This document shows, in pieces, positions 1 through 30,659 of a stretch of DNA of 36,225 nucleotides. A program made the translations under genes and the position numbers. The DNA comes from Oscillospiraceae bacterium (lineage in GTDB: Bacteria > Bacillota > Clostridia > Oscillospirales > Oscillospiraceae): assembly GCA_017518445.1 (NCBI GenBank), contig JAFWVB010000060.1, positions 1 through 36,225 of the forward strand, read 5' to 3'. Position 1 is the first letter of the stretch. Each line of letters starts with the position of its first letter. The notes below the pieces were generated by a model, which was not told the origin of the DNA, made no database searches, and saw only the letters and a list, made by a program, of their open reading frames with translations.

Positions 1-1
1 G

Positions 2-1699
2 ACGCAGACAGCGACGTTTACGTTCACTTCTCCGGCAAAAGCCGAAGGACCCTATGTGCTGCCCGCGAATTTTCCCAACGTGAGCTATAACAGTACAGAC
101 GGGACATACACGTTCTCGCTGACAACGCCGACAAACGGGAGCTTTTACTTCCCAAATCTGCCCTATGGCACTGCCTATGAGGTATCGGAGACGACGTCTG
201 GCGGCAGGTGGCAACTGTGGGATCAAACTGATATTTCCGGCACTCTGACGGGCGACGCCACAGCGACATTCACCAACCGCCAAAAACCGTCGCTTACGAT
301 AAAGAAAACAGTCACTGGCGACGGCGGAAGCACGACGGATTATTTTGACTTCACTCTGGAACTTACCGACGCTCAAGGAAATGACATAGAAAATCTCCCC
401 GCGCCGTATCTGCTCGACGAGAACGGAAACCCGACGGTGAAGAAGGTGGAGGAATGGAATTTTATCGGTTCCGGTAATTACTCCTTCAAGCTAAAGCACG
501 GAGAGTGGTTCAGAATAGACGGACTGCCCATCGGCGCAATGTACGGCTTGACGGAGGTGGATCCAAGTCCATATACCACAACGCTAAACATAACGGGCGA
601 CAAATATACGGACGATCACGGAACGCCGAGGCTTATCGAGTTCGACCCGGGTGATCTGCTCAATCCTACAGTGGTTGACACATACCTGTCCGAGGATACG
701 ACGATAGAGTATATAAACCACAGAGATCGCGATAAGCTCACGATATCGAAGACCGTTACGGGATACGGAGATCCGAATAAGGACTGGACGTTTACGGTCA
801 CGCTTGTTGACCAAGACGGAGCTCCGCTCACGAATATTACCGCGCCGACAGGGGCGACAGGCTGGGACGACAGCGGAAAGAGCAACGGCGTTTACAAGTT
901 CACGCTGAAGCACGGCGAGTCGCTGACGATAACAATGCCGACGGTGTTTACTGCAACAGAACATACTAAGTTTACCGTTTCCGAAGCAGAGGCAGATCAA
1001 GGCGGTTATACAACAACGCTCGATTTTACGTCACTTTTCGGATCGGATACCGGCGCGCTGGCGGACGTTTTTTCGACCAATCCCGGGATAATAGCAGGCG
1101 ACACGGTCGTGGCGTTCAAGAACGACAAGCAGACGCTGAACCTCAAGATCGGGAAGACCGTTGCGGGAAACATGGGCGACAAGACGCGGGAGTTTGAATT
1201 CATGATTAAACTTGAGAAGCCCTCGACGGACCCGAATGCTCCTATGGTTCCGATAACAGGACTTTCAGCTCCGCAGGGCGCGACCGCTTGGCGTGATTTA
1301 GGAAACGGCGAATACAGCTTCAAGCTGAAGCATGGAGATTCATTCACGATACTCGGTCTGCCGTACGGGACGAGGTATTCTGTGGTTGAGATCCAGCCAA
1401 TCGACGGCTACTATGACACGACCTTCGATGTGGACAAAAGGTCGTTAACCGAATACTATGACAACGTTTATATATTCGACCCGCCGCCAAGTACGGAGAG
1501 CCCGCCACCGCCAACATACAGGGCAGTGGTTTCGGACGTGATAACCGAAGACGTTACGATCACGTACACAAACACCAAAGGAAGCACTCCGCCGACTGGT
1601 ATATACGACAGCCTCGGACCCGCGCTTGCGGGATTCGTGACGGCGACAATGCTGCTCGCCGTGTCACGCATCGGAAGGAGGCGGCGTCGCAATGAATGA
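2..1699 (+). CDS. Wall-anchored pilin/adhesin with repeated pilin domains (5' partial)
   Basis: The frame is open from the left edge, so the true start lies upstream. The visible protein has the tail of one repeat and three full repeats of a Cna-B/DUF7601-like pilin domain, beginning near nucleotides 293, 737 and 1142. Each starts with a KTVTG or KTVAG strand and carries an LKHG motif (near 493, 905 and 1324). The C-terminus is a sortase signal: TPPTG at 1586-1600, a hydrophobic segment, then an Arg-rich tail. Such domains in known pilins often form intramolecular isopeptide bonds; the Lys in KTVTG and a late Glu are candidates, not proven. The TGA stop overlaps the start of the next gene, so the two are translationally coupled. 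It is probably the large tip or ancillary subunit of the pilus, exported and linked to the wall by one of the class B sortases downstream. The exact role is inferred from context. Confidence 0.85.
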   Translation, partial: TQTATFTFTSPAKAEGPYVLPANFPNVSYNSTDGTYTFSLTTPTNGSFYFPNLPYGTAYEVSETTSGGRWQLWDQTDISGTLTGDATATFTNRQKPSLTIKKTVTGDGGSTTDYFDFTLELTDAQGNDIENLPAPYLLDENGNPTVKKVEEWNFIGSGNYSFKLKHGEWFRIDGLPIGAMYGLTEVDPSPYTTTLNITGDKYTDDHGTPRLIEFDPGDLLNPTVVDTYLSEDTTIEYINHRDRDKLTISKTVTGYGDPNKDWTFTVTLVDQDGAPLTNITAPTGATGWDDSGKSNGVYKFTLKHGESLTITMPTVFTATEHTKFTVSEAEADQGGYTTTLDFTSLFGSDTGALADVFSTNPGIIAGDTVVAFKNDKQTLNLKIGKTVAGNMGDKTREFEFMIKLEKPSTDPNAPMVPITGLSAPQGATAWRDLGNGEYSFKLKHGDSFTILGLPYGTRYSVVEIQPIDGYYDTTFDVDKRSLTEYYDNVYIFDPPPSTESPPPPTYRAVVSDVITEDVTITYTNTKGSTPPTGIYDSLGPALAGFVTATMLLAVSRIGRRRRRNE

Positions 1700-2480
1700 C
1701 GAGAGCGGGTCCTGGCGGGAGCTCGATTTGGGCGATAAAACCGCCGGAGACAGCGATGCTTCGCCGGACCCGACAGTGAAATACCGCAGGCAGACAAGAC
1801 CGAACTCCGAGCGCGTACGAAGCTGGCGGCAAGCGCCGCCGGACCCTGCGCAAATCAGCGCGCAGAGGCAGGCTCAGACGCGGCAAAGCCCCGCGCAGGA
1901 CCAAAGCGCGGAGCATGAGCAAAGCGCCGAACAGCAAGGCCCAGAGAAGGGGCAGAGCGGCAAGCACGCGCCCGCAAAGAAGAAAAAGCGGCGAAGTCCG
2001 ATAATCGGCTTTCTCGTAAAGCTCGTGCTTTTAGCGGCGATACTGTACGGCGTGTTCACCTTCGTCCTCGGAATGCATATCTGCCACGGAAACCGTATGC
2101 ACCCGTTCATAATGGACGGCGATCTTATCGTGACGTACAAGTTAGAGGCGTATCACGTCGGCGACGCGGTGGTTTATGAAAGCCCGCTCACCGGAGAGAA
2201 GACGATCTCGCGCATCGCGGCGATAGGTGAAAACGAAATACAGATAACCGATGTGGGAGAGCTGCTGATAAACGGCAGTATCCCGGAGGAAAACGTGTTC
2301 TATGCCACAAAAAAGCTCAACGACTCGACGGTGAGCTTTCCGTACCGGATGAGCGGCGGCGGGTATTTCCTGCTCGACGACTACCGGACGATCGGAAAGG
2401 ACAGCCGGATGTTCGGAGAGGTGACGGAAGACGCGCTCTTGGGCAAGATAGTTTATGTTTTTCGAAGAAGAGGAATATAA
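1692..2480 (+). CDS. Signal peptidase I-like pilus assembly protein (SipA-type), catalytic dyad missing
   Basis: 262 residues. Residues 1-100 form a Gln/Ala/Pro-rich charged cytoplasmic tail ending in KKKKRR, followed by one membrane helix (about 103-127) and an S26 signal-peptidase fold. Box B reads GNRMHP (133-138), so Arg135 sits where the nucleophilic Ser should be. Box D reads TISRIAAIG, so Ser173 replaces the general-base Lys. Box E is well preserved (DDYR...KDSRMFG, about 229-242). Family knowledge: the streptococcal pilus-island protein SipA is a signal peptidase homologue that lost the Ser/Lys pair yet is needed for pilus polymerisation. This gene has the same kind of loss and the same neighbours, so I infer a chaperone or assembly role rather than proteolysis. 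The start ATG lies 8 bases before the upstream gene's stop ends and has AAGGAGG at 1676-1682. The long N-terminal tail is unusual for the family. Confidence 0.85.
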   Translation: MNDESGSWRELDLGDKTAGDSDASPDPTVKYRRQTRPNSERVRSWRQAPPDPAQISAQRQAQTRQSPAQDQSAEHEQSAEQQGPEKGQSGKHAPAKKKKRRSPIIGFLVKLVLLAAILYGVFTFVLGMHICHGNRMHPFIMDGDLIVTYKLEAYHVGDAVVYESPLTGEKTISRIAAIGENEIQITDVGELLINGSIPEENVFYATKKLNDSTVSFPYRMSGGGYFLLDDYRTIGKDSRMFGEVTEDALLGKIVYVFRRRGI

Positions 2481-2787
2481 GTCCTCGTTTTCAGGCTTAC
2501 GCCTGAAAGCCGAAAGGGGCTGCAGCCTGCCGCAGCGCACTCGCTATGCTCGCACGTTTGCAGGCTGATAAGTATTTTTCGCATTGGCAAAGCTAATACG
2601 AAAAATGATTTGAATTGATTTTCCCCGCGGGGAAAACTCTGCGAGGCAAATTCCCTTTTGAAGCCCTCCGCGAGGTGGGAGAGTCAAACGCTTCCCCGTC
2701 AGGGGAAGGCGTGGGAATCAAGAAAAACAGTAAAAGCAAAAAAGAAAAATAAAAAATAGAAATATAAACCAAAAAGGAGAAAAAATC
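2481..2787. repeat. Intergenic repeat module A (copy 1): chain of hairpins, then A-rich leader of the next pilin gene
   Basis: This gene-free 307-base gap holds successive palindromes: TTTCAGGC/GCCTGAAA (2489-2508), CAGCCTGC/GCAGGCTG (2523-2567), a stem around ATTTTTCG/CGAAAAAT (2574-2606), the perfect palindrome TTTTCCCCGCGGGGAAAA (2619-2636), and CGCTTCCCC/GGGGAAGGCG (2689-2711). The same series in the same order recurs at 30243-30402 with changed but still pairing stems. From about 2720 the sequence becomes A-rich and carries AAGGAG (2774-2779) for the following gene. No convincing promoter was seen. The first hairpin could act as a terminator for the upstream operon, but it has no T-run. 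Confidence 0.8.
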
Positions 2788-3918
2788 ATGAAAAGGACAA
2801 TCAAAAAAGCATCAGTTTTTCTGCTTGCAGCACTGATGCTCGCGACAATGTTCGTGCCGGCAATGGCGGCGTACACTGCCGTCAGCGTCACGGGAACTCC
2901 CGCAAATGTCAAGTGGGCACATAGTCTTGAAATTACCGATTCGCCGTATAACCTTGACTACGACATTACGTATTCATTTACGGCAGGAGCCGCCGCGGCA
3001 ATGCCAGGCTCGCCCGCAACCGGCGTCAGCGGCGTGCCGACTATCGCTGATATCAGCTACGGTCCGACGGCGGGCGATAATTTCGCGACTGCAGCGAATC
3101 ACAAAATCAGCAAAGAAGCTGCCATAACATGGACGAACGTCAGCTTCACCGAGCCCGGTACATACTACTGGCCGATATCTTCGACCGTGAACAAAGGGTC
3201 CGCTCCGGAGAACGCCAGCACCAATACACAGCACTATCTGTATGCGTTTGTAGCTGACAATAATGGCGCTCTCGAGGTCAACGCGGTCGGCGTTACCACA
3301 CAGGAAAAGGATACTAATGGTGTTCCGACACTTGCGACAAAAACTCCGCCGGTGGATCAGTATCCATCGACGACAAACGACCTGACAGTCAGCAAGACCG
3401 TTACGGGAAACATGGGCTCTAAAGAGCAGTACTTCAAGTTTGAGATTACGGTCACTCTTCCCGCCGGTATCGCCGCAAGAGACTATACCATAAGCGGTAA
3501 CTACGATACCAACGTTCCCGCGACGGCATACAACCAAGCGCAGTCCAACCCCTCCGGCACGATAAATTTGGCCGCGAGTGCCACTGCAACATATACCATT
3601 GATGTCTGGCTGAAGCATGGACAGAGCTTCAAAATCGAGCAGCTTCCGTACAACACGACCTACAGCATCACGGAGTCCAATAACGACGGCTATACGGTGA
3701 CTATAGACAATGCCGGTACGACTGTTAACGGAAACACCGCGACAGGAACCATAACTGACGCGGCGAAAACCGTGGCGTACACCAATAATAAGACCAATAC
3801 GCCGCCGACCGGTATTCTGCTCCAGTACGGCGCGCCGATAGCGGGCGTTCTGCTCGTCGCCGGACTCATGGCAGTCCTGTTTGCGACAAAGCGCAGAAAA
3901 GAGCAGGAAGCGGAGTAA
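2788..3918 (+). CDS. Pilin shaft-type subunit (FctA-like plus DUF7601-like domain), sortase-anchored
   Basis: 376 residues. A signal peptide occupies residues 1-27 (KRTIKK, hydrophobic core, cleavage near AMA-AY). The N-terminal half resembles FctA/Spy0128 pilin domains: a beta-rich stretch ending in FTEPGTYYW and HYLYAFVADNNGALEV. The second half is a DUF7601-like domain (KTVTGNMG near residue 205, LKHG near 275, GYTVTIDNAG near 303). The sorting signal is TPPTG (3799-3813), a hydrophobic helix and KRRKEQEAE. The second domain closely resembles the third repeat of the gene at 2-1699. The strong AAGGAG and isolated position suggest high expression, as expected for a major pilin, but this is inference. 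A class B sortase follows after a repeat-filled gap. Confidence 0.85.
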   Translation: MKRTIKKASVFLLAALMLATMFVPAMAAYTAVSVTGTPANVKWAHSLEITDSPYNLDYDITYSFTAGAAAAMPGSPATGVSGVPTIADISYGPTAGDNFATAANHKISKEAAITWTNVSFTEPGTYYWPISSTVNKGSAPENASTNTQHYLYAFVADNNGALEVNAVGVTTQEKDTNGVPTLATKTPPVDQYPSTTNDLTVSKTVTGNMGSKEQYFKFEITVTLPAGIAARDYTISGNYDTNVPATAYNQAQSNPSGTINLAASATATYTIDVWLKHGQSFKIEQLPYNTTYSITESNNDGYTVTIDNAGTTVNGNTATGTITDAAKTVAYTNNKTNTPPTGILLQYGAPIAGVLLVAGLMAVLFATKRRKEQEAE

Positions 3919-4437
3919 ACCGCTTTTACATCGCGCATAATTAAAAATATCCCTTTGTGTTTTATTTCGGAGCGACAGTTTTAATTGCTCCGCAGGACCC
4001 ATTTTCTTTTACGCAAAAGAAAATGGGTGAAAAGAAATCGCCAAAGGGGGAAGATTCCGAATTTCTTCCCCCTTTGGAAACCCCTAATTAAAACGGCAAA
4101 AGGGAACCGCTTCGTTCCCTTTTAAAACCCTCCGCGTCGGTGGAAAACAAAAGGTGCGGAGTAAAAACGAGTTCGCAAAGAACAAAACCACAAACAAGAC
4201 AAAAAAGGATAGCGTTTCCCTATCTTTTGCGCTTGCCCCGGTCTTTTCGCAACAGCGGAGAGATTCCAAAGAGAACAAAGAGTTCTCTTTGGCCGTTTTA
4301 AGGGTGAGGGGTCAAGGGGAGAGGGGAAATCGGATCCCCTCGCCCCTTGTGCGCTCTTTTGGTGACTTTTCTGACGCATATCAGAAAAGTTACCCTGCGG
4401 AGCAATAAAAGACCGGGAAAAATTTGGAGAGAGTCGA
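3919..4437. repeat. MITE-like intergenic element with terminal inverted repeats and at least six internal hairpins (module B, copy 1)
   Basis: Gene-free 519 bases. A near-perfect terminal inverted repeat bounds 3979-4410: TTTTAATTGCTCCGCAGG at the left and the complement of CCTGCGGAGCAATAAAA at the right (one extra A). Inside are ACCCATTTTCTTTT/AAAAGAAAATGGGT (3997-4028), CCAAAGGGGGAAGA/TCTTCCCCCTTTGG (4041-4077), AAAAGGGAAC/GTTCCCTTTT (4098-4123), CCAAAGAGAAC/GTTCTCTTTGG (4266-4292), a 15-bp stem with one mismatch (4313-4349) and GGTGACTTTTCTGA/TCAGAAAAGTTACC (4361-4394). The first three hairpins recur inverted at 30428-30553. An 84-codon open frame runs through the element, but its residues just follow the palindromes. 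No transposase gene is present; no clear target duplication was seen. Confidence 0.75.
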
Positions 4438-5151
4438 TTGGAAAGAGGAATAAACAAGGCTGTGAACGTGCTGGACACGATGGTGAACACGGTCGTGGTC
4501 ATAATATGCCTGCTGATACTGTTCATAAGCGGATATTCGCTGCTGGACAATGTGTGGCAGGTGCAGGGCGCGTCGGATGACTCTCTTCTCGCGTTCAAGC
4601 CGGTGCTCGACGAGCCGATAAAGCAGGAACAGCTCATATCCGGCAACCAGGTCGCGTGGCTGACGATAGACGACACGGCGATAGATTACCCCGTCATGCA
4701 GGGCGAGGACAATTTTGAATATCTCAACAAGGACCCCTACGGGGAATTCAAGCTCAGCGGCTCGATATTCCTCGATCACAGAAACAGTCCCGATTTTACC
4801 GACGAATACTCGGTGATTTACGGGCATCACATGGAGCACGGCGTTATGTTCGGCTCCCTCGACGCATTCAAGGACAAAAGCTATTTCGATACGCACACCA
4901 AAGGTCACCTTGCGACCGGCGAAAAGGTATACGATATAACACTTTTCGCGGTGTCCTCCGCGGACGCGATGAACGGAACGCTGTTCGATCCGCAGGGGAG
5001 AACGACTTCGGAAATTACCGATTTCCTAAAGGAAAACGCCATAATATATAACGAGCCGGAGGAAGGCAGAAGCATAATCGCGCTGTCGACCTGCGCGGGC
5101 GAGACGTATTACGCAAGACTGCTCGTGTTCGGCACGATAAAAGAACGGTAA
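4438..5151 (+). CDS. Class B sortase
   Basis: 237 residues starting at TTG, chosen because GGAGAGAG lies at 4426-4433 and the protein begins with a typical N-terminal membrane anchor (about residues 15-36). Class B features: WLTIDDTAIDYPVMQG, FLDHRN, then YGHHM with catalytic His130, LSTC with nucleophile Cys219, and YARLLVFG with Arg227. Sortases cut the sorting signal after Thr and join the protein to another pilin or to the cell wall. All wall-anchored proteins in the window carry TPxTG, so this enzyme or its partner at 6214 must accept that motif; class B sortases accepting a non-Leu first position are known from Clostridioides difficile. Which of the two sortases polymerises and which anchors cannot be told from sequence. 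Confidence 0.93.
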   Translation: MERGINKAVNVLDTMVNTVVVIICLLILFISGYSLLDNVWQVQGASDDSLLAFKPVLDEPIKQEQLISGNQVAWLTIDDTAIDYPVMQGEDNFEYLNKDPYGEFKLSGSIFLDHRNSPDFTDEYSVIYGHHMEHGVMFGSLDAFKDKSYFDTHTKGHLATGEKVYDITLFAVSSADAMNGTLFDPQGRTTSEITDFLKENAIIYNEPEEGRSIIALSTCAGETYYARLLVFGTIKER

Positions 5152-5188
5152 AAAACGGCACAAAAACGATGAAAGGAAGTGAAAGGCT

Positions 5189-6172
5189 ATGAAAATGCAA
5201 GGTCGCAGAATAACTGCGTCAGCGCTGCTGGTCGCCCTCGTTTTCTGCCTTTTGCTTGGAAATATCGGCGCGCTTGCGGCGTCGGAAACCATGGATGTGA
5301 GCATACCTGTCTCATGCACGGGCGCGCCGTGTACCGCCGTCTTGCTCGACGGCGCGGGAAATGAGCTGGCACGGCTCGATCTCACGGTAGGTGTTACATC
5401 GTATTTCACCGCCCACTGCGCTGGTCTCGGTGACCACGGCTTCCAAATAAAGCTTATAAATACCGACACCGCGACGGTCATATACGACAAAACCGTGTTC
5501 GACGTCAGCATAACTCTGTTTTACGGCGACGACGGACAGGTGCATTACGTTATGAGCGCAAACCCCGGAAACAAGCCGACGGAGATTATATTCCACAATA
5601 CTCCGAAGACGACGCCTCCGCCGTGTACCGACGATCCGCCGGTCGTGAAGCATGTCCAGGGAAATCCGAAAAAGGCAGAGACGTTTACCTTCGTGCTGAC
5701 TCCGGACGACCCGTCCTATCCGATGCCCGCGGGCAGCGTGAACGGGGTGAAGACCACAACGATAACAGGCGAGGGAATGAGTGAATTCGGAATTATCGAA
5801 TTCACGGCGCCAGGACGATATACCTACACGGTAATAGAGAAAAACGGCGGAGCCGCGGGCTACACCTACGACGACAGCATTTACACGATCGCTTACGACG
5901 TGACGGAGCAAAACGGTGCGCTTTCGGTCGTGAGGACGATATTGAAGGACGGCAAAATAGTCACGGGCTTTAACGTCGTTTCATTTACGAACGTCTATAA
6001 AGAGGATCCGCCGCCGGATAAGCCAAACCCGCCGACGCCGAAAACGGGCGACGACTCTCATCTTTCACTTTGGAAGACTGCGGCGGGCGCGTCGCTCGGT
6101 ATGATATTGCTACTCGGCGCGGTGCTGATATTGACGATAAAAAAAGGCAAAAAAGAGGAGCCGAACGGATAG
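5189..6172 (+). CDS. FctA-like pilin with TPKTG sorting signal
   Basis: 327 residues. Signal peptide about 1-31 (core LLVALVFCLLLG, cleavage near ALAAS). The middle holds a short beta-rich domain with four cysteines after the signal peptide (C43, C48, C77 and one near 149), then a clear FctA/Spy0128-type domain from about residue 155 (VVKHVQGNPKKAETFTF, FTAPGRYTYTVIE, YDDSIYTIAYDVTEQNGAL). The C-terminus has PNPPTPKTG (TPKTG at 6035-6049), a hydrophobic helix and KKGKKEE. Placement between two class B sortases, with AAGGAAGTG upstream, suggests a minor pilin or wall-anchor subunit. The extracellular cysteines could form disulfides. The gene ends with TAG, one of five here to do so; a second in-frame TAG and a TAA follow within 14 codons. 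Confidence 0.85.
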   Translation: MKMQGRRITASALLVALVFCLLLGNIGALAASETMDVSIPVSCTGAPCTAVLLDGAGNELARLDLTVGVTSYFTAHCAGLGDHGFQIKLINTDTATVIYDKTVFDVSITLFYGDDGQVHYVMSANPGNKPTEIIFHNTPKTTPPPCTDDPPVVKHVQGNPKKAETFTFVLTPDDPSYPMPAGSVNGVKTTTITGEGMSEFGIIEFTAPGRYTYTVIEKNGGAAGYTYDDSIYTIAYDVTEQNGALSVVRTILKDGKIVTGFNVVSFTNVYKEDPPPDKPNPPTPKTGDDSHLSLWKTAAGASLGMILLLGAVLILTIKKGKKEEPNG

Positions 6173-6213
6173 ACGGCGACGTCGTATAACGTTTGTGCTT
6201 TTGAGTAGGGATA

Positions 6214-7047
6214 ATGTTGAAAAGCAGGAGAACGCTTATTTTGACGCTGATCCTTGCCGTGCTGGTCATCGTTTTCATCGTGTCGACGTATATGGTCATA
6301 TCCATCGTGACGCAGCAGGAGCAGGAGAAAGAGGCGTTTGACGTTATCGCGGAGTCTGTGAAGCCCCTCCGCGAGGAGCGTGTCATAGACCCTCCGAAAA
6401 AAGAGGCGGCAAAAACGCCGTACGATGACGAAATACCGACGATATTGCCGGAGTATGAGGAGCTTTATACTCAAAATCCGGATATGTTCGGGTGGATATA
6501 TATCGAGGGGACGAAGATAGATTACCCGGTGATGTACACGCCGGAGGAGCCGGAATATTACCTGCGCCGCGCGTTTGACGGGAGCAGTACACAGAGCGGC
6601 ACGCCGTTTATCGACGGCGCGTGCGCACCCGACGGGGATTTCTATCTGATATACGGGCATCACATTAAAAACGGGTCGATGTTCGGCTCGCTGACAAAAT
6701 ACGCGGATAAGACGTGGCGCGACGAGCACCGCGTGATTTGCTTCGACACGCTGTACGAGCGGCGCGAATACGAGGTGATCGCGGCATTTTACGCAGACGC
6801 CGCGCTCGACGAGGGGGAGGGCTTCTTATACTACAAATATACCGACCTCTCCGACAGAGACGTGTTTGACGAGTATGTGAGTCAGGTATCCGAGGCGTCG
6901 ATTTACAAAGAGGCGGTGGACGCCGAATACGGAGACGAGCTGATCGCGCTTTCGACGTGCAGCTATCACACGGGCGACGGGCGCTTCGTCGTGGTGGCAA
7001 AGAGGATAAGCCGACAGAGCGTTCCGGAGAACGTATATGATCGGTGA
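6214..7047 (+). CDS. Class B sortase (second)
   Basis: 277 residues. A membrane anchor at about 7-31 is followed by a charged linker with EKEAFDVIAESVKPL and the class B catalytic domain: WIYIEGTKIDYPVMYTPEEPEYYLRRAF, YGHHIKNGSMFGSL with His149, LSTC with Cys249, and GDGRFVVVAKR with Arg257. The start ATG has only a weak AGGGA close by, so translation may depend on the upstream pilin gene 41 bases away. It differs clearly from the sortase at 4438 (longer linker, different loops), which fits a division of labour between pilin polymerisation and wall anchoring, though which does which is unknown. A strong terminator follows, closing the pilus locus. Confidence 0.93.
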   Translation: MLKSRRTLILTLILAVLVIVFIVSTYMVISIVTQQEQEKEAFDVIAESVKPLREERVIDPPKKEAAKTPYDDEIPTILPEYEELYTQNPDMFGWIYIEGTKIDYPVMYTPEEPEYYLRRAFDGSSTQSGTPFIDGACAPDGDFYLIYGHHIKNGSMFGSLTKYADKTWRDEHRVICFDTLYERREYEVIAAFYADAALDEGEGFLYYKYTDLSDRDVFDEYVSQVSEASIYKEAVDAEYGDELIALSTCSYHTGDGRFVVVAKRISRQSVPENVYDR

Positions 7048-7256: not shown

Positions 7257-8075
7257 ATGCTTATGTTTTTATCAAAGGAAGATTACGAGGAGCCGCGCTG
7301 CCCTCTGTCAAGACCGAGCACGGTTGAGACGATACCGACATGGCGCGTGATAGCGAAATTGGACGAGTATTTGAGCCGCAACGATTACGACACCGCGCGC
7401 AGACACCTTGAATACTGGCTTGCCGAGGCGAAGGCGGGAAATGACGAGAGCGGACAGCTCACGGTCATGAACGAGCTTATCGGGCTTTTGCGCAAAACGG
7501 GAAAAAAGGAAGAATGCCTGAACATGGTCGAGGCGACCGTGGCGTTCGCGGAGACGAGCGGCATGGAGGGTACAATAACCATGGGGACGACGCTTATAAA
7601 CGCGGCGACCGCTTATAAGGCGTTCGGCAAGGCGAGCGACGCGATGCCGCTGTTTATGCGGGCGCGGGAGATATACGAGAAAAACATCTCCGGCGCGGAT
7701 AACAGGCTCGGCGGGCTTTACAATAACATGGCGCTCACGGTCATGGAGCTCGGAGATTACAAAGCGGCGAGAGAGCTTTTCCACAAGGCGCTTGAGGTGA
7801 TGATAGAAGTGGACGGTGGCGAGCCGGAGGTTGCGGTCACATACTGCAATCTTGCGGATCTTGCCGCCGCAGACCCGGAGATTGAGGACAAGGGGCGCGA
7901 GATATACGAATGTCTCGACACGGCTAAGGCGTTTCTCGATACCGACGGTCTGCCGAGAGACGGTAATTACGCCTTCGTGTGTGAAAAATGCGCGCCGACC
8001 TTCGGATATTACGGGCATACCGACACGGAGCGGGAGCTTATGAGAAGGTCAAAGGAGATCTACGAACGGGATTGA
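7257..8075 (+). CDS. Tetratricopeptide-repeat protein
   Basis: 272 residues, no signal peptide or membrane helix, so cytoplasmic. It is almost entirely helical with TPR-like pairs: WRVIAKLDEYLSRNDYDTARRHLEYW, then an LLRKTGKKEECLNMVEATVAFAE unit, AATAYKAFGKASDAMPLFMRAREIYEK and NMALTVMELGDYKAARELFHKALEVM. TPR proteins scaffold protein-protein contacts; no partner can be named. It is the first gene after the 7144 promoter and lies 30 bases before fprA, so it probably shares a transcript with the oxygen-defence genes. Start choice is uncertain: ATG 7257 is 20 bases from AGGAGG (7231-7236), with a small GC-rich hairpin (about 7239-7252) between. A short GTG-led frame from 7222 ends in a TAA overlapping this ATG. 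A second ATG is at 7263. Confidence 0.8.
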   Translation: MLMFLSKEDYEEPRCPLSRPSTVETIPTWRVIAKLDEYLSRNDYDTARRHLEYWLAEAKAGNDESGQLTVMNELIGLLRKTGKKEECLNMVEATVAFAETSGMEGTITMGTTLINAATAYKAFGKASDAMPLFMRAREIYEKNISGADNRLGGLYNNMALTVMELGDYKAARELFHKALEVMIEVDGGEPEVAVTYCNLADLAAADPEIEDKGREIYECLDTAKAFLDTDGLPRDGNYAFVCEKCAPTFGYYGHTDTERELMRRSKEIYERD

Positions 8076-8105
8076 GAGTTAATTTTTAAGGAAGGAGTGC
8101 GAAAG

Positions 8106-9896
8106 ATGGATATTTCAAAGGATATAAGATACGTAGGCGTGAACGACCATGAGACGGATATGTTTGAGGGGCAGTATGCCATACCGAACGGAATGTCGTA
8201 CAATTCGTATGTGATACTGGACGAGAAGATCGCGGTCACGGACACCGTGGACAGGAAATTTACACACGAGTGGCTTGACAATATCTCCGCCGCATGCGAC
8301 GGCAGAGCGCCGGATTATCTGATAGTCCACCACATGGAGCCGGGTCATTCGGCAAACATAACGCAGTTTATGAACGCATATCCGAATGCCGTTATAGTGG
8401 CGGGGGCGAAGGCGTTTACGATGATGAACAATTTTTTCGGCAAGGACTATGAGGACCGGCGCGTCGTCGTCGGGGAGGGCGACACGCTTTCGCTCGGCAT
8501 GCATACGCTGACGTTTTTTGCGGTGCCGATGGTGCATTGGCCGGAGGTGATGATGTCATACGACGACGTCGATAAGGCGCTGTTTTCGGCTGACGCTTTC
8601 GGAAAATTCGGCGCGCTCGACGTCGAGGACGAGTGGGACGGCGAGGCGAGGCGATATTATTTCGGCATCGTCGGGAAATACGGCACACAGGTGCAGGCGC
8701 TGCTCAAAAAGATGGCGGGAATCGACATAAGGACGATATGTCCGCTCCACGGACCCGCTGTTTCCGACAAACTCGAGCATTGTGTCGACCTTTACAACAC
8801 GTGGTCGAGCTATGGCGTCGAGAGCGACGGGATAGTGATAGCTTACACCTCGGTTTACGGGAACACGAAAAAGGCGGTCGAGCTTTTGGCGGGCAAGCTC
8901 CGCGAAAAGGGCTGTCCGAACGTGATCGTAAACGACCTCGCGCGAATGGATATGTCCAAAGCCGTTGAGGACGCTTTCCGTTACGGCAAGCTCGTTTTGG
9001 CAACGACGACGTACAACGCGGACGTATTCCCGTTTATGAAGGAATTTATAAATCACCTCACGGAGCGGGCTTTCAAAAACAGAACGGTCGCGCTTATCGA
9101 AAACGGCTCATGGGCTCCGCAGGCGGCAAAGACGATGAAGGCTATGCTGGACGGGTGCAAAAACCTCACGTTTGCGGAAACGCAGGTCAGGATACTGTCC
9201 GCGATGAACGAGGAAAACAAAGCGCAGATAGAGGCGCTTGCGGACGAGCTCGCGAAGGAGTATTCCGCGCGAAACGGCGAGACGGCGAACAAGAACGATT
9301 TTACCGCGCTCTTCAAGATAGGCTACGGACTGTATGTCGTCACGTCAAACGACGGGAAAAAGGACAACGGACTGATAGTTAACACCGTTTCGCAGGTGAC
9401 GGATTCGCCGAACCGCGTCGCCGTGTGCATAAACAAGCAGAATTATTCGCACCACGTCATAAAGCAGACGGGGATAATGAATGTGAACTGCCTGTCGGTG
9501 GACGCGCCGTTTTCGGTGTTCAAGGACTTCGGCTTTCGAAGCGGGAGGACGGTCGATAAATTTGCGGATATGACGCCGCCGCGCTCGGACAACGGGCTCG
9601 CGTTTCTGCCGCAGTATATAAACGCCTTCATGTCGCTGAAGGTGGAGCAGTATGTGGACCTTGATACGCACGGGATGTTCATATGCTCCGTTACGGAGGC
9701 GCGGGTGATGTCCGACAGAGAGACGATGACGTACACGTATTATCAGAAAAACGTAAAGCCAAAGCCGCAGACCGAGGGCAAAAAGGGCTGGGTCTGCAAG
9801 GTGTGTGGATATATCCATGAGGACGAGAAGCTGCCGGAGGATTTTATCTGCCCGCTTTGCAAGCACGGCGCGGCTGATTTTGAACCCATAAAATAA
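8106..9896 (+). CDS. A-type flavodiiron protein fused to flavin reductase and rubredoxin (FprA-Hrb fusion)
   Basis: 596 residues from ATG 8106; an in-frame GTG at 8097 overlaps the GGAAGGAG site and is rejected. Domains: metallo-beta-lactamase diiron domain (about 1-245), flavodoxin domain (about 248-395, starting VIAYTSVYGNTKKAVELL, an FMN phosphate loop), flavin reductase domain (about 405-545) and a short rubredoxin (about 560-596, C564-x2-C567G and CPLC). Family role: reduces O2 to water or NO to N2O in the cytoplasm. In Moorella thermoacetica, FprA is served by a separate Hrb protein (flavin reductase plus rubredoxin); here both are one chain, so NAD(P)H could feed the diiron site directly. 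Iron-ligand motifs HWPE, LFSADAF and CPLHGP are intact, but the first motif reads HHMEPGHS, with Gly80 where an Asp ligand is expected. Rubrerythrin follows 30 bases later. Confidence 0.93.
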   Translation: MDISKDIRYVGVNDHETDMFEGQYAIPNGMSYNSYVILDEKIAVTDTVDRKFTHEWLDNISAACDGRAPDYLIVHHMEPGHSANITQFMNAYPNAVIVAGAKAFTMMNNFFGKDYEDRRVVVGEGDTLSLGMHTLTFFAVPMVHWPEVMMSYDDVDKALFSADAFGKFGALDVEDEWDGEARRYYFGIVGKYGTQVQALLKKMAGIDIRTICPLHGPAVSDKLEHCVDLYNTWSSYGVESDGIVIAYTSVYGNTKKAVELLAGKLREKGCPNVIVNDLARMDMSKAVEDAFRYGKLVLATTTYNADVFPFMKEFINHLTERAFKNRTVALIENGSWAPQAAKTMKAMLDGCKNLTFAETQVRILSAMNEENKAQIEALADELAKEYSARNGETANKNDFTALFKIGYGLYVVTSNDGKKDNGLIVNTVSQVTDSPNRVAVCINKQNYSHHVIKQTGIMNVNCLSVDAPFSVFKDFGFRSGRTVDKFADMTPPRSDNGLAFLPQYINAFMSLKVEQYVDLDTHGMFICSVTEARVMSDRETMTYTYYQKNVKPKPQTEGKKGWVCKVCGYIHEDEKLPEDFICPLCKHGAADFEPIK

Positions 9897-13735: not shown

Positions 13736-15433
13736 GTGAAGGTCGTCATTATAGGCGGAGTTGCGGGCGGCGCGACCGCCGCCGCGAGGATACGCAGGCT
13801 CGATGAGAGCGCGGAGATAATCATTTTCGAGCGTTCGGGCTATATTTCATACGCCAACTGCGGACTGCCCTACTATGTGGGCGGCGTTATCGAAGACAGG
13901 GGGGAGCTTACTCTCCAGACGCCGGAGAGCTTCCGGGAGAGATTTCGCATAGACGTTAAGGTTCGCCATGAGGTCACGGCGATAGACACGGAGAAAAAGA
14001 CCGTGACCGTGAGGGCGCTTGACGCCGGAAGCGAGTTCGCGGAGAGCTATGACAGGCTCCTTATCGCCACAGGCGCGAGACCCGTAGTGCCGAATATGCC
14101 GGGTGTGGAGCTTGAGAATGTGTTTTCGCTTCGCACCGTCGAGGACGCGGTAAAAATACGCGGATATATAGAGAAAAACGCGCCGAGGTCGGCTGTGATC
14201 GCGGGCGGCGGGTATATCGGCGTCGAGATGGCGGAAAATCTTATAGAGGCGGGGCTTTCGGTCACGATAGTCCAGCAGATGGATCAGCTTTTGGCGCCGT
14301 TTGACGCGGATATGGCGTCGCTTATACACGCGGAGCTTAAAAGACACGGCGCGGTTTTGAAATTCGGGAGCACCGTGGCGGGATTTGAAAAATCCGGCGA
14401 TGGCGTGAAAACGTTCGTAGAGGGCGAAGCGCCGATGGTTTCCGACATTGTGATACTCGCAATAGGCGTCGCGCCGGACACGGCTTTGGCGAAAAAAGCG
14501 GGGCTTGAGCTCGGAATACGGGGCAGTATCGCCGTGAACGAAAAAATGGAGACGTCCGCGCCGGACGTATACGCCGTGGGCGACGCGGTGCAGGTAAAAA
14601 GCGCCGTGACGGGCGAAAATACACTTATATCGCTCGCGGGACCCGCCAACAAGCAGGGGCGCATCGCCGCGGACAATATCTGCGGCGGGCAGAGCCGCTT
14701 TAAGGGTTCGATGGGCTCGTCCGTAATAAAGCTCTTCGATATGACGCTCGCGACGACGGGTATAAATGAGAAAACCGCCGCGGAGCTCGGCATAGATACG
14801 GAGAAGGTTGTGCTGTCTCCGGCTTCGCACGCCTCGTATTATCCGGGCGCGGAAAGCATGGTGATGAAGGTCATATGCGACAAAAAGACGCAGAGACTGC
14901 TCGGCGCTCAGATCGTCGGCGGGAGCGGCGTCGATAAGCGTATAGACGTGCTCGCCGCGGCGATACACGCGGGCATGACGGGACCGGAGCTAAAGGAGCT
15001 CGATCTCGCGTACGCGCCGCCGTATTCATCTGCAAAGGACCCCGTAAATATGGCGGGCTTTATGTTTGAAAATGTTTTCGGCGGGCTTTTGAAGCAGTTC
15101 CATTATGACGAAGTGAGTGAGCTTCCGAGGGACGGAAGCGTGACACTGCTCGACACGAGAACGCGCGGAGAATACGCGCGCGGACATATCGACGGCTTTG
15201 TGAATATCCCCGTGGACGAGCTGCGCGAGCGTATCGGAGAGATACCGGAGAGAAAGACCGTGTACGTCATGTGCCAGAGCGGGCTTCGCAGCTACATCGC
15301 GTGCAGACTTTTGGAGCAGAGAGGCTTTGACTGCCGGAATCTTTCCGGCGGCTACGGCTTTTACAGCGCGGTAATGAAAGACCGCAAGGCGGCGAGAGAA
15401 GCATACCCCTGCGGCATGGAAAAGAGCGAATAA
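13736..15433 (+). CDS. CoA-disulfide reductase with C-terminal rhodanese domain
   Basis: 565 residues, GTG start. FAD-binding VVIIGGVAGGATAAAR at the N-terminus, redox Cys42 in SYANCGLPYYVGG, NAD(P)H-binding AVIAGGGYIGVEMAENL near 155-171, and the second FAD motif DVYAVGDA near 280. A dimerisation domain follows, with YAPPYSSAKDPVN, and residues about 465-550 form a rhodanese with CQSGLRS. Family members reduce CoA disulfide, CoA persulfide or polysulfide with NAD(P)H, and the rhodanese-fused form is linked to sulfane-sulfur reduction. It is the last gene of the thiol run. Substrate preference cannot be read from sequence. Confidence 0.93.
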   Translation: MKVVIIGGVAGGATAAARIRRLDESAEIIIFERSGYISYANCGLPYYVGGVIEDRGELTLQTPESFRERFRIDVKVRHEVTAIDTEKKTVTVRALDAGSEFAESYDRLLIATGARPVVPNMPGVELENVFSLRTVEDAVKIRGYIEKNAPRSAVIAGGGYIGVEMAENLIEAGLSVTIVQQMDQLLAPFDADMASLIHAELKRHGAVLKFGSTVAGFEKSGDGVKTFVEGEAPMVSDIVILAIGVAPDTALAKKAGLELGIRGSIAVNEKMETSAPDVYAVGDAVQVKSAVTGENTLISLAGPANKQGRIAADNICGGQSRFKGSMGSSVIKLFDMTLATTGINEKTAAELGIDTEKVVLSPASHASYYPGAESMVMKVICDKKTQRLLGAQIVGGSGVDKRIDVLAAAIHAGMTGPELKELDLAYAPPYSSAKDPVNMAGFMFENVFGGLLKQFHYDEVSELPRDGSVTLLDTRTRGEYARGHIDGFVNIPVDELRERIGEIPERKTVYVMCQSGLRSYIACRLLEQRGFDCRNLSGGYGFYSAVMKDRKAAREAYPCGMEKSE

Positions 15434-28917: not shown

Positions 28918-28958
28918 AGACGGCGGCTCGCCGTCCGGAGATAGTTTTGGAGGTGCGA

Positions 28959-30227
28959 ATGAAAAGGGGGAAAAAACGGCTGATCGCCGCGATGCTCATG
29001 GCGGTCACGGTGTGGAGCTTTATTTCGGCCGGCTCCGCGGCTTTTGCGGCGGCAAAGCCGGGAACTGCGGTCAAGGTGACGCTTCCGGGGTTCAAGGTGA
29101 CCATCAACGGTAAAGAGCGCGAAAACCGATACAGCGAATACCCGCTTTTGGTCTATAAGGACATAACATATCTCCCGATGACATACAATGACGCGAGATT
29201 TTTAGGACTCAGGAGCGATTGGAGCGAAAGCGCCGGACTTTCCGTAACGGCGGGGGCAACGCCGTCGGAGTCATACTCGCCCTATGCGCGCAAGACCGGA
29301 AACGCGGCGTCTTACAGCGCAAGGGTCGCGTCGCTCAAAATAAAGGTCAACGGCAAGTCCATAGATAACGCAAAGGAGCAGTATCCGCTTTTGCTGTTCC
29401 GCGACGTGACATATTTCCCGCTCACATGGCGGTTTTGCGTCAATGAGTTCAACTGGAGCTACAGCTGGAGCGAGGCTAAGGGGCTTGTTATAAACTGCAA
29501 GAGCCGATCCGCGCCCGCGATAGAGATGCAGAGGTTCATACTGCACACGGCGGGCGCCACGGAGGACGGTTTTTCCGGCACCAACAGCATCGAAGCCGCG
29601 GACAATTCCTATAAAAACGGATACAGATGGCTTGAAGTCGATTTCAACTGGACGTCAGACGAAAAGCTTGTCTGCGTACACGACTGGGGCAATTGGAATA
29701 AGCATATGGGAAGAGGCGTTTTTGAGCCTGTCAGCTACAGCGAATTTATCCGCATAAGCGATGAGGCGAATGTATATCACGCCTTTACGCCGGACAGCCT
29801 GGAGGCGTGGCTTGAAACGCACCCCGGTGCGATGATAGTGACCGATGTGAAGGAGAACAACGTAGAAGCCATGAGCATTATAAGGTGGAACAATCCGGGA
29901 ATGATGGACCGCCTTATCGTGCAGATATATTCCTTCGACGAATACGAACAGATAAAATCGCTTGGGTATAAGAACATTATCCTCACGATGTATAAGCTGT
30001 CGTGGGCGGATTACCACGATTTCAATAAAATAGACGCCCTTATACGCAATACGGACGTCGTCGCCGTCGCGATGGACGCCGTTGATTATACGCGCGATGT
30101 GTTCGAGCATATAAAGGCGACCGGCATACCCGTTTATGTCCATACGCTGAATACAGGAGCCGAGCAGAGGGCGTGGTTCGATAAGGGCGCTTACGGGATA
30201 TACACCGATGTTGGCGATATGCGATAA
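28959..30227 (+). CDS. Secreted GDPD-like phosphodiesterase with two N-terminal stalk repeats
   Basis: 422 residues from ATG 28959 (GGAGGTG at 28949-28955; the in-frame TTG at 28947 is rejected). Signal peptide about 1-32 (cleavage near AFAAA). Residues about 38-185 hold two copies of a beta-rich unit like the copper amine oxidase N-terminal/stalk domain: YPLLVYKDITYLPMTYNDARFLG and YPLLLFRDVTYFPLTW, each ending in a WSE-x-GL strand. Residues about 192-422 are a glycerophosphodiester phosphodiesterase barrel: FILHTAGA, NSIEAADNSYKNGYRWLEVDFNWT with the Glu-x-Asp pair, and VCVHDW with the catalytic His. The usual HRG near the start is HTAG here, so activity is likely but not certain. A role in degrading lipid head groups or teichoic acid is inference. 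It stands alone, followed by the repeat region. Confidence 0.82.
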   Translation: MKRGKKRLIAAMLMAVTVWSFISAGSAAFAAAKPGTAVKVTLPGFKVTINGKERENRYSEYPLLVYKDITYLPMTYNDARFLGLRSDWSESAGLSVTAGATPSESYSPYARKTGNAASYSARVASLKIKVNGKSIDNAKEQYPLLLFRDVTYFPLTWRFCVNEFNWSYSWSEAKGLVINCKSRSAPAIEMQRFILHTAGATEDGFSGTNSIEAADNSYKNGYRWLEVDFNWTSDEKLVCVHDWGNWNKHMGRGVFEPVSYSEFIRISDEANVYHAFTPDSLEAWLETHPGAMIVTDVKENNVEAMSIIRWNNPGMMDRLIVQIYSFDEYEQIKSLGYKNIILTMYKLSWADYHDFNKIDALIRNTDVVAVAMDAVDYTRDVFEHIKATGIPVYVHTLNTGAEQRAWFDKGAYGIYTDVGDMR

Positions 30228-30659
30228 AATAAGCGCGGTTCATTTTCAGGCTGACGCCTGAAAGCCGAAAGGGAAACAGCCTGCGGCATCGCACTCGCTA
30301 TGCTCGCACGTTTGCAGGCTGAGAAGAATTTTTCTCGCCGGCAAAGCCGACGAAAAAATAACGTGACTTTATTTTATCTGCGGATAAAACTCTGCGAGGC
30401 TTTTTTACATCCGTCGCGGAAGGATTCAAAAGGGAACGAAGCCGTTCCCTTTTGCCGTTTCAATTAGGGGTTTCCAAAGGGGGAAGAAATCGGAATCTTC
30501 CCCCTTTGGCGCTTTCTTTTCGTCCATTTTCTTTTGCGTAAAAGAAAATGGACCCTGCGGAGCATAAAATAAGAGCGAGCACAAAAGAAAAAAGTTGCCC
30601 CGCGGAGCGAATAAATAAAAAATCCACTCCGCGGAGCAAATGACAATAAAAGCTCTGCG
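30228..30659. repeat. Composite repeat region: module A (copy 2) joined to module B (copy 2, inverted relative to copy 1)
   Basis: Gene-free 432 bases. Module A (30243-30402) repeats the hairpin series of 2488-2650 in the same orientation: TTTCAGGC/GCCTGAAA (30244-30263), CAGCCTGC/GCAGGCTG (30277-30321), an AAA-loop stem (30328-30359), and TTTTATCTGCGGATAAAA (30372-30389) in the place of the palindrome at 2619. Module B (30428-30563) is the reverse complement of 3986-4123: AAAAGGGAACG/CGTTCCCTTTT (30428-30453), CCAAAGGGGGAAGA/TCTTCCCCCTTTGG (30474-30509), GTCCATTTTCTTTT/AAAAGAAAATGGAC (30522-30553), then CCTGCGGAGCA. A further CCGCGGAG/CTCCGCGG hairpin is at 30600-30634. It may also terminate the genes converging on it; no coding capacity is seen. 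Confidence 0.82.

Follow-up and report, generated by a model that had tools for sequence, protein, structure and literature searches.

A short hairpin repeat of Oscillospirales is probably an IS1182-type miniature transposon with RNA-like stem changes that probably arose in DNA

Insertion sequences of the IS1182 family prefer palindromic targets. IS1272 (TnSha1) of staphylococci, which belongs to this family, is reported to target hairpins, to delete part of the hairpin upon insertion and to make no target duplication, and palindromic targets are cited for other family members (PMC4923244). Several kinds of gene-less repeats are also known in bacteria. Prokaryotic MITEs are short, non-coding, high-copy elements with terminal inverted repeats and target duplications (PMC10969869). 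Pneumococcal BOX elements are modular, intergenic, rich in stem-loops and apparently parasitic, and they vary in the number of boxB units while the sequence of each module is conserved (PMC3049150). REPs and BIMEs are mosaic, palindromic intergenic repeats (PMC2817692).

Here, we compare these systems with module A, a repeat that occurs twice in a window of 36,225 nucleotides (the whole stretch of DNA that was analysed) from an Oscillospiraceae bacterium. Module A shares with the IS1182 family the terminal inverted repeats of IS1182 copies in related genomes, as well as terminator hairpins as targets, but it has no transposase gene and duplicates the whole hairpin, where IS1272 is reported to delete part of it. 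Like MITEs, it is short, non-coding and high in copy number, has terminal inverted repeats and target duplications, and shares some of its genomes with an IS relative. Unlike MITEs in general, it consists internally of hairpins in a fixed order, whose stems vary freely between conserved linkers, and it duplicates an entire target hairpin, the length of which varies. Like BOX, it is modular, intergenic, stem-loop-rich and apparently parasitic in a Firmicute host, whereas the number of its hairpins is nearly fixed and their stems vary. We consider module A most likely to be a gene-less MITE of the IS1182 (DDE) type with hairpins that evolve as DNA cassettes, of which the window holds end-decayed relics.

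Anatomy and distribution of module A

Both window copies are present on the + strand at the positions of the original prediction, and each starts no more than about 15 bp after the stop codon of a + strand ORF. Copy 1 (2485–2648) starts 5 bp past the stop of ORF 1692–2480, and copy 2 (30240–30402, with decayed ends) lies 13 bp past that of ORF 28947–30227. The predicted interval holds genuine copies but falls short of the full preserved element, as complete copies elsewhere reach the ends CAGnnTGTC.../...GACAnnCTG. A complete element measures about 200 bp and contains neither an ORF nor a transposase gene.

Read from 5' to 3' on the originally described strand, the family consists of H1, a linker, H2 around a small H2b, GAGAAGTA, H3, GATTTGACTTTA, H4, AACTCTGCGAGGC (H5) and a T-run. 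The stems are almost freely variable and yet Watson-Crick paired, the linkers are conserved, and in H3 both the 7-nt loop and the apical mismatch are conserved. In copy 2, all on the + strand, H1 is TTTCAGGC-TGAC-GCCTGAAA (30244–30263), with a 5' arm that in complete copies overlaps the left terminal inverted repeat. H2 (CAGCCTGC / GCAGGCTG, 30277–30321) encloses the conserved CACTCGCTATGCTCGCAC segment with a 2-bp H2b, and H3 (30328–30359) has the near-apex mismatch as C.A, which is A.C in most copies. The linker ahead of H4 (30360–30371) reads AACGTGACTTTA, the family consensus being about GATTTGACTTTA; H4 follows as TTTTATC-TGCG-GATAAAA (30372–30389), and then the H5 mini-hairpin CTC-TGC-GAG, GC and the T-run (30390–30406). 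The right terminal repeat (yGACAnnCTG), which in complete copies lies 3' of H5 and the T-run, is lost here. In copy 1, also on the + strand, the hairpins are at 2489–2508 (H1), 2523–2567 (H2), 2574–2606 (H3), 2620–2637 (H4) and 2638–2646 (H5).

Alignment of the two copies bears out that hairpin order, loops and linkers are common to both, and that stems differ on both sides together. One changed stem is TTTTCCCCGCGGGGAAAA at 2620–2637 and TTTTATCTGCGGATAAAA at 30372–30389; another, which closes an AAA loop, is CATTGGC-AAA-GCTAATA in copy 1 and CGCCGGC-AAA-GCCGACG in copy 2. Both copies fold better than dinucleotide shuffles (z -3.4 and -3.2). The window copies were found to have no terminal repeats and no target duplication, and we infer them to be old relics with decayed ends.

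About 250 copies were collected, and a covariance model was built on H2–H5. Searches with this model found module A in 35 of 99 related genomes, often with 25–35 or more copies and with up to 82 per genome, and in two of 299 genomes of a phylum-wide sample, both from the window's own family. Five copies are present in the genome of the window itself (1.3 Mb, 82% complete). Module A was found in Oscillospirales only, and the named carriers are Oscillospiraceae and other Oscillospirales such as Flavonifractor, Pseudoflavonifractor, Oscillibacter, Intestinimonas and Evtepia. In one genus, four species have 59–82 copies each and a fifth has none. This patchy spread resembles that of mobile DNA. 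A plasmid search with module A gave no match, and a phage search gave two weak partial matches. In Rfam, nothing in the window scored above the gathering score, and copy 2 had only chance-level matches at a loose threshold (E up to 5). The statement that module A belongs to no named family thus holds as far as Rfam is concerned, but its ends are those of IS1182, a named transposon family. PMC8040213 lists, among its contents, palindromic RNA candidates from human microbiomes, and module A may already have been listed there anonymously.

Termini, targets and partner elements

Termini that match CAGnnTGTCrAArAA or its inverted complement with at most two mismatches were found on the left in 38 and on the right in 33 of 143 copies, with 23 copies having both; shuffled controls gave none on either side. 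The same locus-specific sequence stands on both sides of 36 of 125 Oscillospiraceae copies (31 direct, 5 inverted), against 1 of 374 in the null set. These flanking duplicates are mostly hairpins of about 20–35 bp, usually perfect and variable in length, and their offsets are near-fixed, typically 4–7 nt ahead of H1 and about 15 nt past GAGGC. Commonly, they have an A-run at the outer left and a T-run at the outer right, and they look like intrinsic terminators. The family shows features of MITEs: terminal inverted repeats, target-site duplications, short non-coding dispersed copies and an autonomous relative with the same ends. The duplicated terminator hairpins also agree with the insertion of IS1182-type elements at palindromic or hairpin targets. 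The DDE transposase of the IS1182 family is encoded in the proposed partner only, module A itself having no ORF.

Candidate partners came from a search of the relatives for IS1182 transposase (NF033551). Three IS1182 elements (L363, L364 and L365) have the ends CAGTCTGTC(A/G)AA, as in module A, and the same ends are found in degraded or partial IS1182 elements (L370, L385 and L386). L363, with the protein domains DDE_Tnp_1_6 and DUF772, and L365 are flanked by perfect direct duplications of a whole terminator hairpin, 30 bp and 34 bp long, respectively. L363 and L364 have an H1-like hairpin on the left terminal repeat and a further hairpin just inside the right one, so that sub-terminal hairpins at both ends are another trait shared with module A. 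L364 is an intact IS1182 in a genome (G011) that also contains 12 copies of module A. The presence of IS1182 was ruled out as a predictor of module A, as IS1182 genes occur in 11 of 35 carriers and in 20 of 64 non-carriers, with no correlation. They are absent from most element-rich genomes, including G066, G089 and G033. Such a lack of correlation is expected if many copies outlive their transposase, and it is also a weakness of assigning module A to IS1182.

The shared ends and targets suggest that IS1182 transposase moved the module A copies. An IS1182-family transposase acting in trans would insert module A, often at the hairpin of an intrinsic terminator, and the inserted element would come to lie between two copies of that hairpin. 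As the whole terminator is duplicated, the element can be bordered by a terminator at both ends after insertion. Movement can be followed on one viral contig (L192) that encodes a portal and a major head protein, in which two near-identical direct copies of module A bracket the head gene (740–2270). Neither copy has an obvious terminator duplication. None of 47 related phage loci contains module A. At the loci that were inspected, one gene follows directly on the other, and the gap between them holds a ribosome-binding site. Judged from these sequences, the two copies are a case of recent movement, which demonstrates insertion and not the enzyme. The original prediction had left a role as RNA, as cruciform DNA or in a mobility mechanism that needs the hairpins as options. 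Among these, mobility is strongly supported by the IS1182-like ends, the duplicated terminator hairpins and the phage copies.

Covariation of the stems and exchange of hairpins

Collecting genomic copies, building a covariance model and testing for covariation, as had been proposed for this repeat, revealed strong covariation far beyond that of shuffles. Pairing is kept in nearly all copies, in agreement with the claim that folding has been maintained. In 90 copies, 530 cells were changed on both sides where 141 were expected in shuffles, and the covariation score was 0.431 versus 0.119; none of 500 shuffles reached the score or the two-sided count. A second set of 82 distinct copies replicated this result. 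Chance as the source of the covariation is excluded.

The pattern of these changes is unlike that of RNAs from the same genomes. G-U makes up 0.7–0.8% of the standard pairs in module A, versus 12.5% in SRP RNA and 9.1% in tRNA. Changes on both sides outnumber those on one side by 530:15 and 542:15 in the two sets, compared with 136:49 in SRP RNA. The further step from paired changes to selection on RNA is not supported, since there are hardly any wobble pairs or one-sided intermediates, replacement affects entire stems and the copies lie in both orientations to their neighbouring genes. Among 141 copies, the neighbouring genes are convergent at 58, co-directional at 41 and 24 (the two orientations) and divergent at 18. 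There is no obligatory orientation, which argues against a cis-acting mRNA element. The RNA-like matching changes of the stems thus probably arose in DNA and not by selection on RNA.

How stems change can be observed in genus g67, where ten loci that are orthologous by their flanks between species have hairpins that differ singly or in groups. At one locus H1 alone is replaced, at another H1 is kept and H2–H4 are replaced, at a third H3–H4 are kept, and at two everything is replaced. The stem alleles at these loci are alleles common elsewhere in the genome. Within 40 copies of one g67 genome, each hairpin is drawn from a small set of alleles, with no pairwise association between hairpins (p 0.15–0.98). 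The alleles are likewise unassociated in 41 further copies, taken from two other g67 species (p 0.06–0.96), and when all 82 g67 copies are pooled, weak association appears in the adjacent pairs H1–H2 and H2–H3 only. In this genus, stem replacement thus proceeds hairpin by hairpin, with free assortment across copies. The exchange probably takes place in DNA, through ectopic recombination or through replication template switching at hairpins; stems would thereby stay palindromic, and the outcome would resemble RNA covariation. Replacement of whole stems produces covariation without wobble intermediates. Template switching is documented as making and repairing perfect stems in one step (PMC8794818). 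The evidence for cassette exchange is from genus g67 only, and that for ends and targets from Oscillospiraceae copies; as these are different lineages, the two halves are linked by shared architecture only.

A structured non-coding RNA, either a cis-acting 3'-UTR element or a trans-acting sRNA with stems kept by compensatory mutation under selection, would fit the very strong covariation, the conserved linkers and H3 loop and the folding better than shuffles. In Oscillospiraceae copies, mismatches are A.C on the originally described strand and thus G.U on the other, as in an RNA from that other strand. However, the low share of G-U relative to the 9–12.5% in real RNAs of the same genomes, the near absence of one-sided changes, neighbouring genes in all four orientations and the lack of an Rfam match make selection on such an RNA improbable. 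The same holds for the presence of module A in only 35 of 99 relatives and its absence from a congener of element-rich species. The excess of A.C, although significant in Oscillospiraceae copies, is absent or reversed in genus g67, so this strand asymmetry was dropped as proof of an opposite-strand RNA. The UNCG-type loop of H4 (TGCG) was also rejected as diagnostic, as many copies share it unchanged whereas it varies freely among those of g67. Even less credible is a REP/BIME-type element mobilised by a REP-associated Y1 (HuH) transposase. Module A is intergenic, palindromic, high-copy, mosaic and often at gene 3' ends, as BIMEs are (PMC2817692), but its ends and target duplications are of the IS1182 type. 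Its variable palindromes and conserved linkers are the reverse of what is seen in REPs and BIMEs. No co-occurrence of Y1/RAYT with module A was found, and Y1_Tnp (PF01797) is absent from carriers G000, G066, G089, G033, G042, G044, G024, G031 and G057, most of which are high-copy.

The stems could also change mainly by template switching within a copy, one arm being rewritten from the other, without exchange between copies. This process yields perfect stems and multi-base compensatory changes in a single event (PMC8794818), and the nested extra palindromes in one H3 loop (L027) agree with it. It is nevertheless doubtful as the main process, because, within one genome, identical stem alleles are met at many loci and in free combination, and because the alleles at orthologous loci are also frequent at other loci of the genome. 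Mobility, as in an IS1182-type MITE, does not by itself account for the strong conservation of the linkers and the H3 loop. These may be binding sites for the transposase or a host protein, or have a residual RNA role. An extension of the MITE interpretation, also rather unlikely, starts from the duplication of a host terminator hairpin at each insertion: target hairpins would be captured as internal cassettes and swapped among copies, so that the family would form a self-renewing library of palindromes with conserved function in the linkers only. If such hairpin recruitment takes place, RNA-like covariation is a by-product of transposition and recombination.

Module A provides a clear natural case in which covariation far exceeds every shuffle control and is probably not evidence of selected RNA. 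Searches for new RNAs in metagenomes that rely on covariation should take warning from it, and wobble frequency together with hairpin linkage offers them a simple check. The analysis also describes a probable terminator-targeting mini-transposon family in abundant gut Oscillospiraceae that appears to duplicate whole terminators, and the family is material to test palindrome exchange between genomic copies.

Neighbouring repeats and genes

A second high-copy hairpin repeat, module B, adjoins module A at 30403–30575 (+ strand). It has a second, inverted window copy at 3979–4147 (- strand) and a weaker one at 4255–4410 (+ strand). The window's genome contains about eight copies with 91–94% identity, and by sequence module B is almost confined to this genome. 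It adjoins module A at two loci, and the pair of modules recurs at G000:C3:130-460.

The intergenic regions of genus g67 are mosaics of several palindromic modules, which are nested and vary in order by species (L207, about 7940–8480 and 14430–15060; L213, L215 and L218). Intergenic arrays of this genus contain TTTCAATnAnAGGGG-hairpin segments with a layout similar to module B. In the sister genome (G099), the corresponding intergenic regions are short and plain. At about 110–300 of L027, several perfect palindromes, nested in one another, enlarge the H3 loop; among them is the loop motif GTGATACATG in inverted orientation. This is possibly a snapshot of palindrome growth.

Judged by eye, positions 1–7047 of the window hold a cluster of surface proteins with repetitive domains and C-terminal membrane anchors, together with sortase-like genes (ORFs 2–1699, 2788–3918, 4438–5151, 5189–6172 and 6214–7047).
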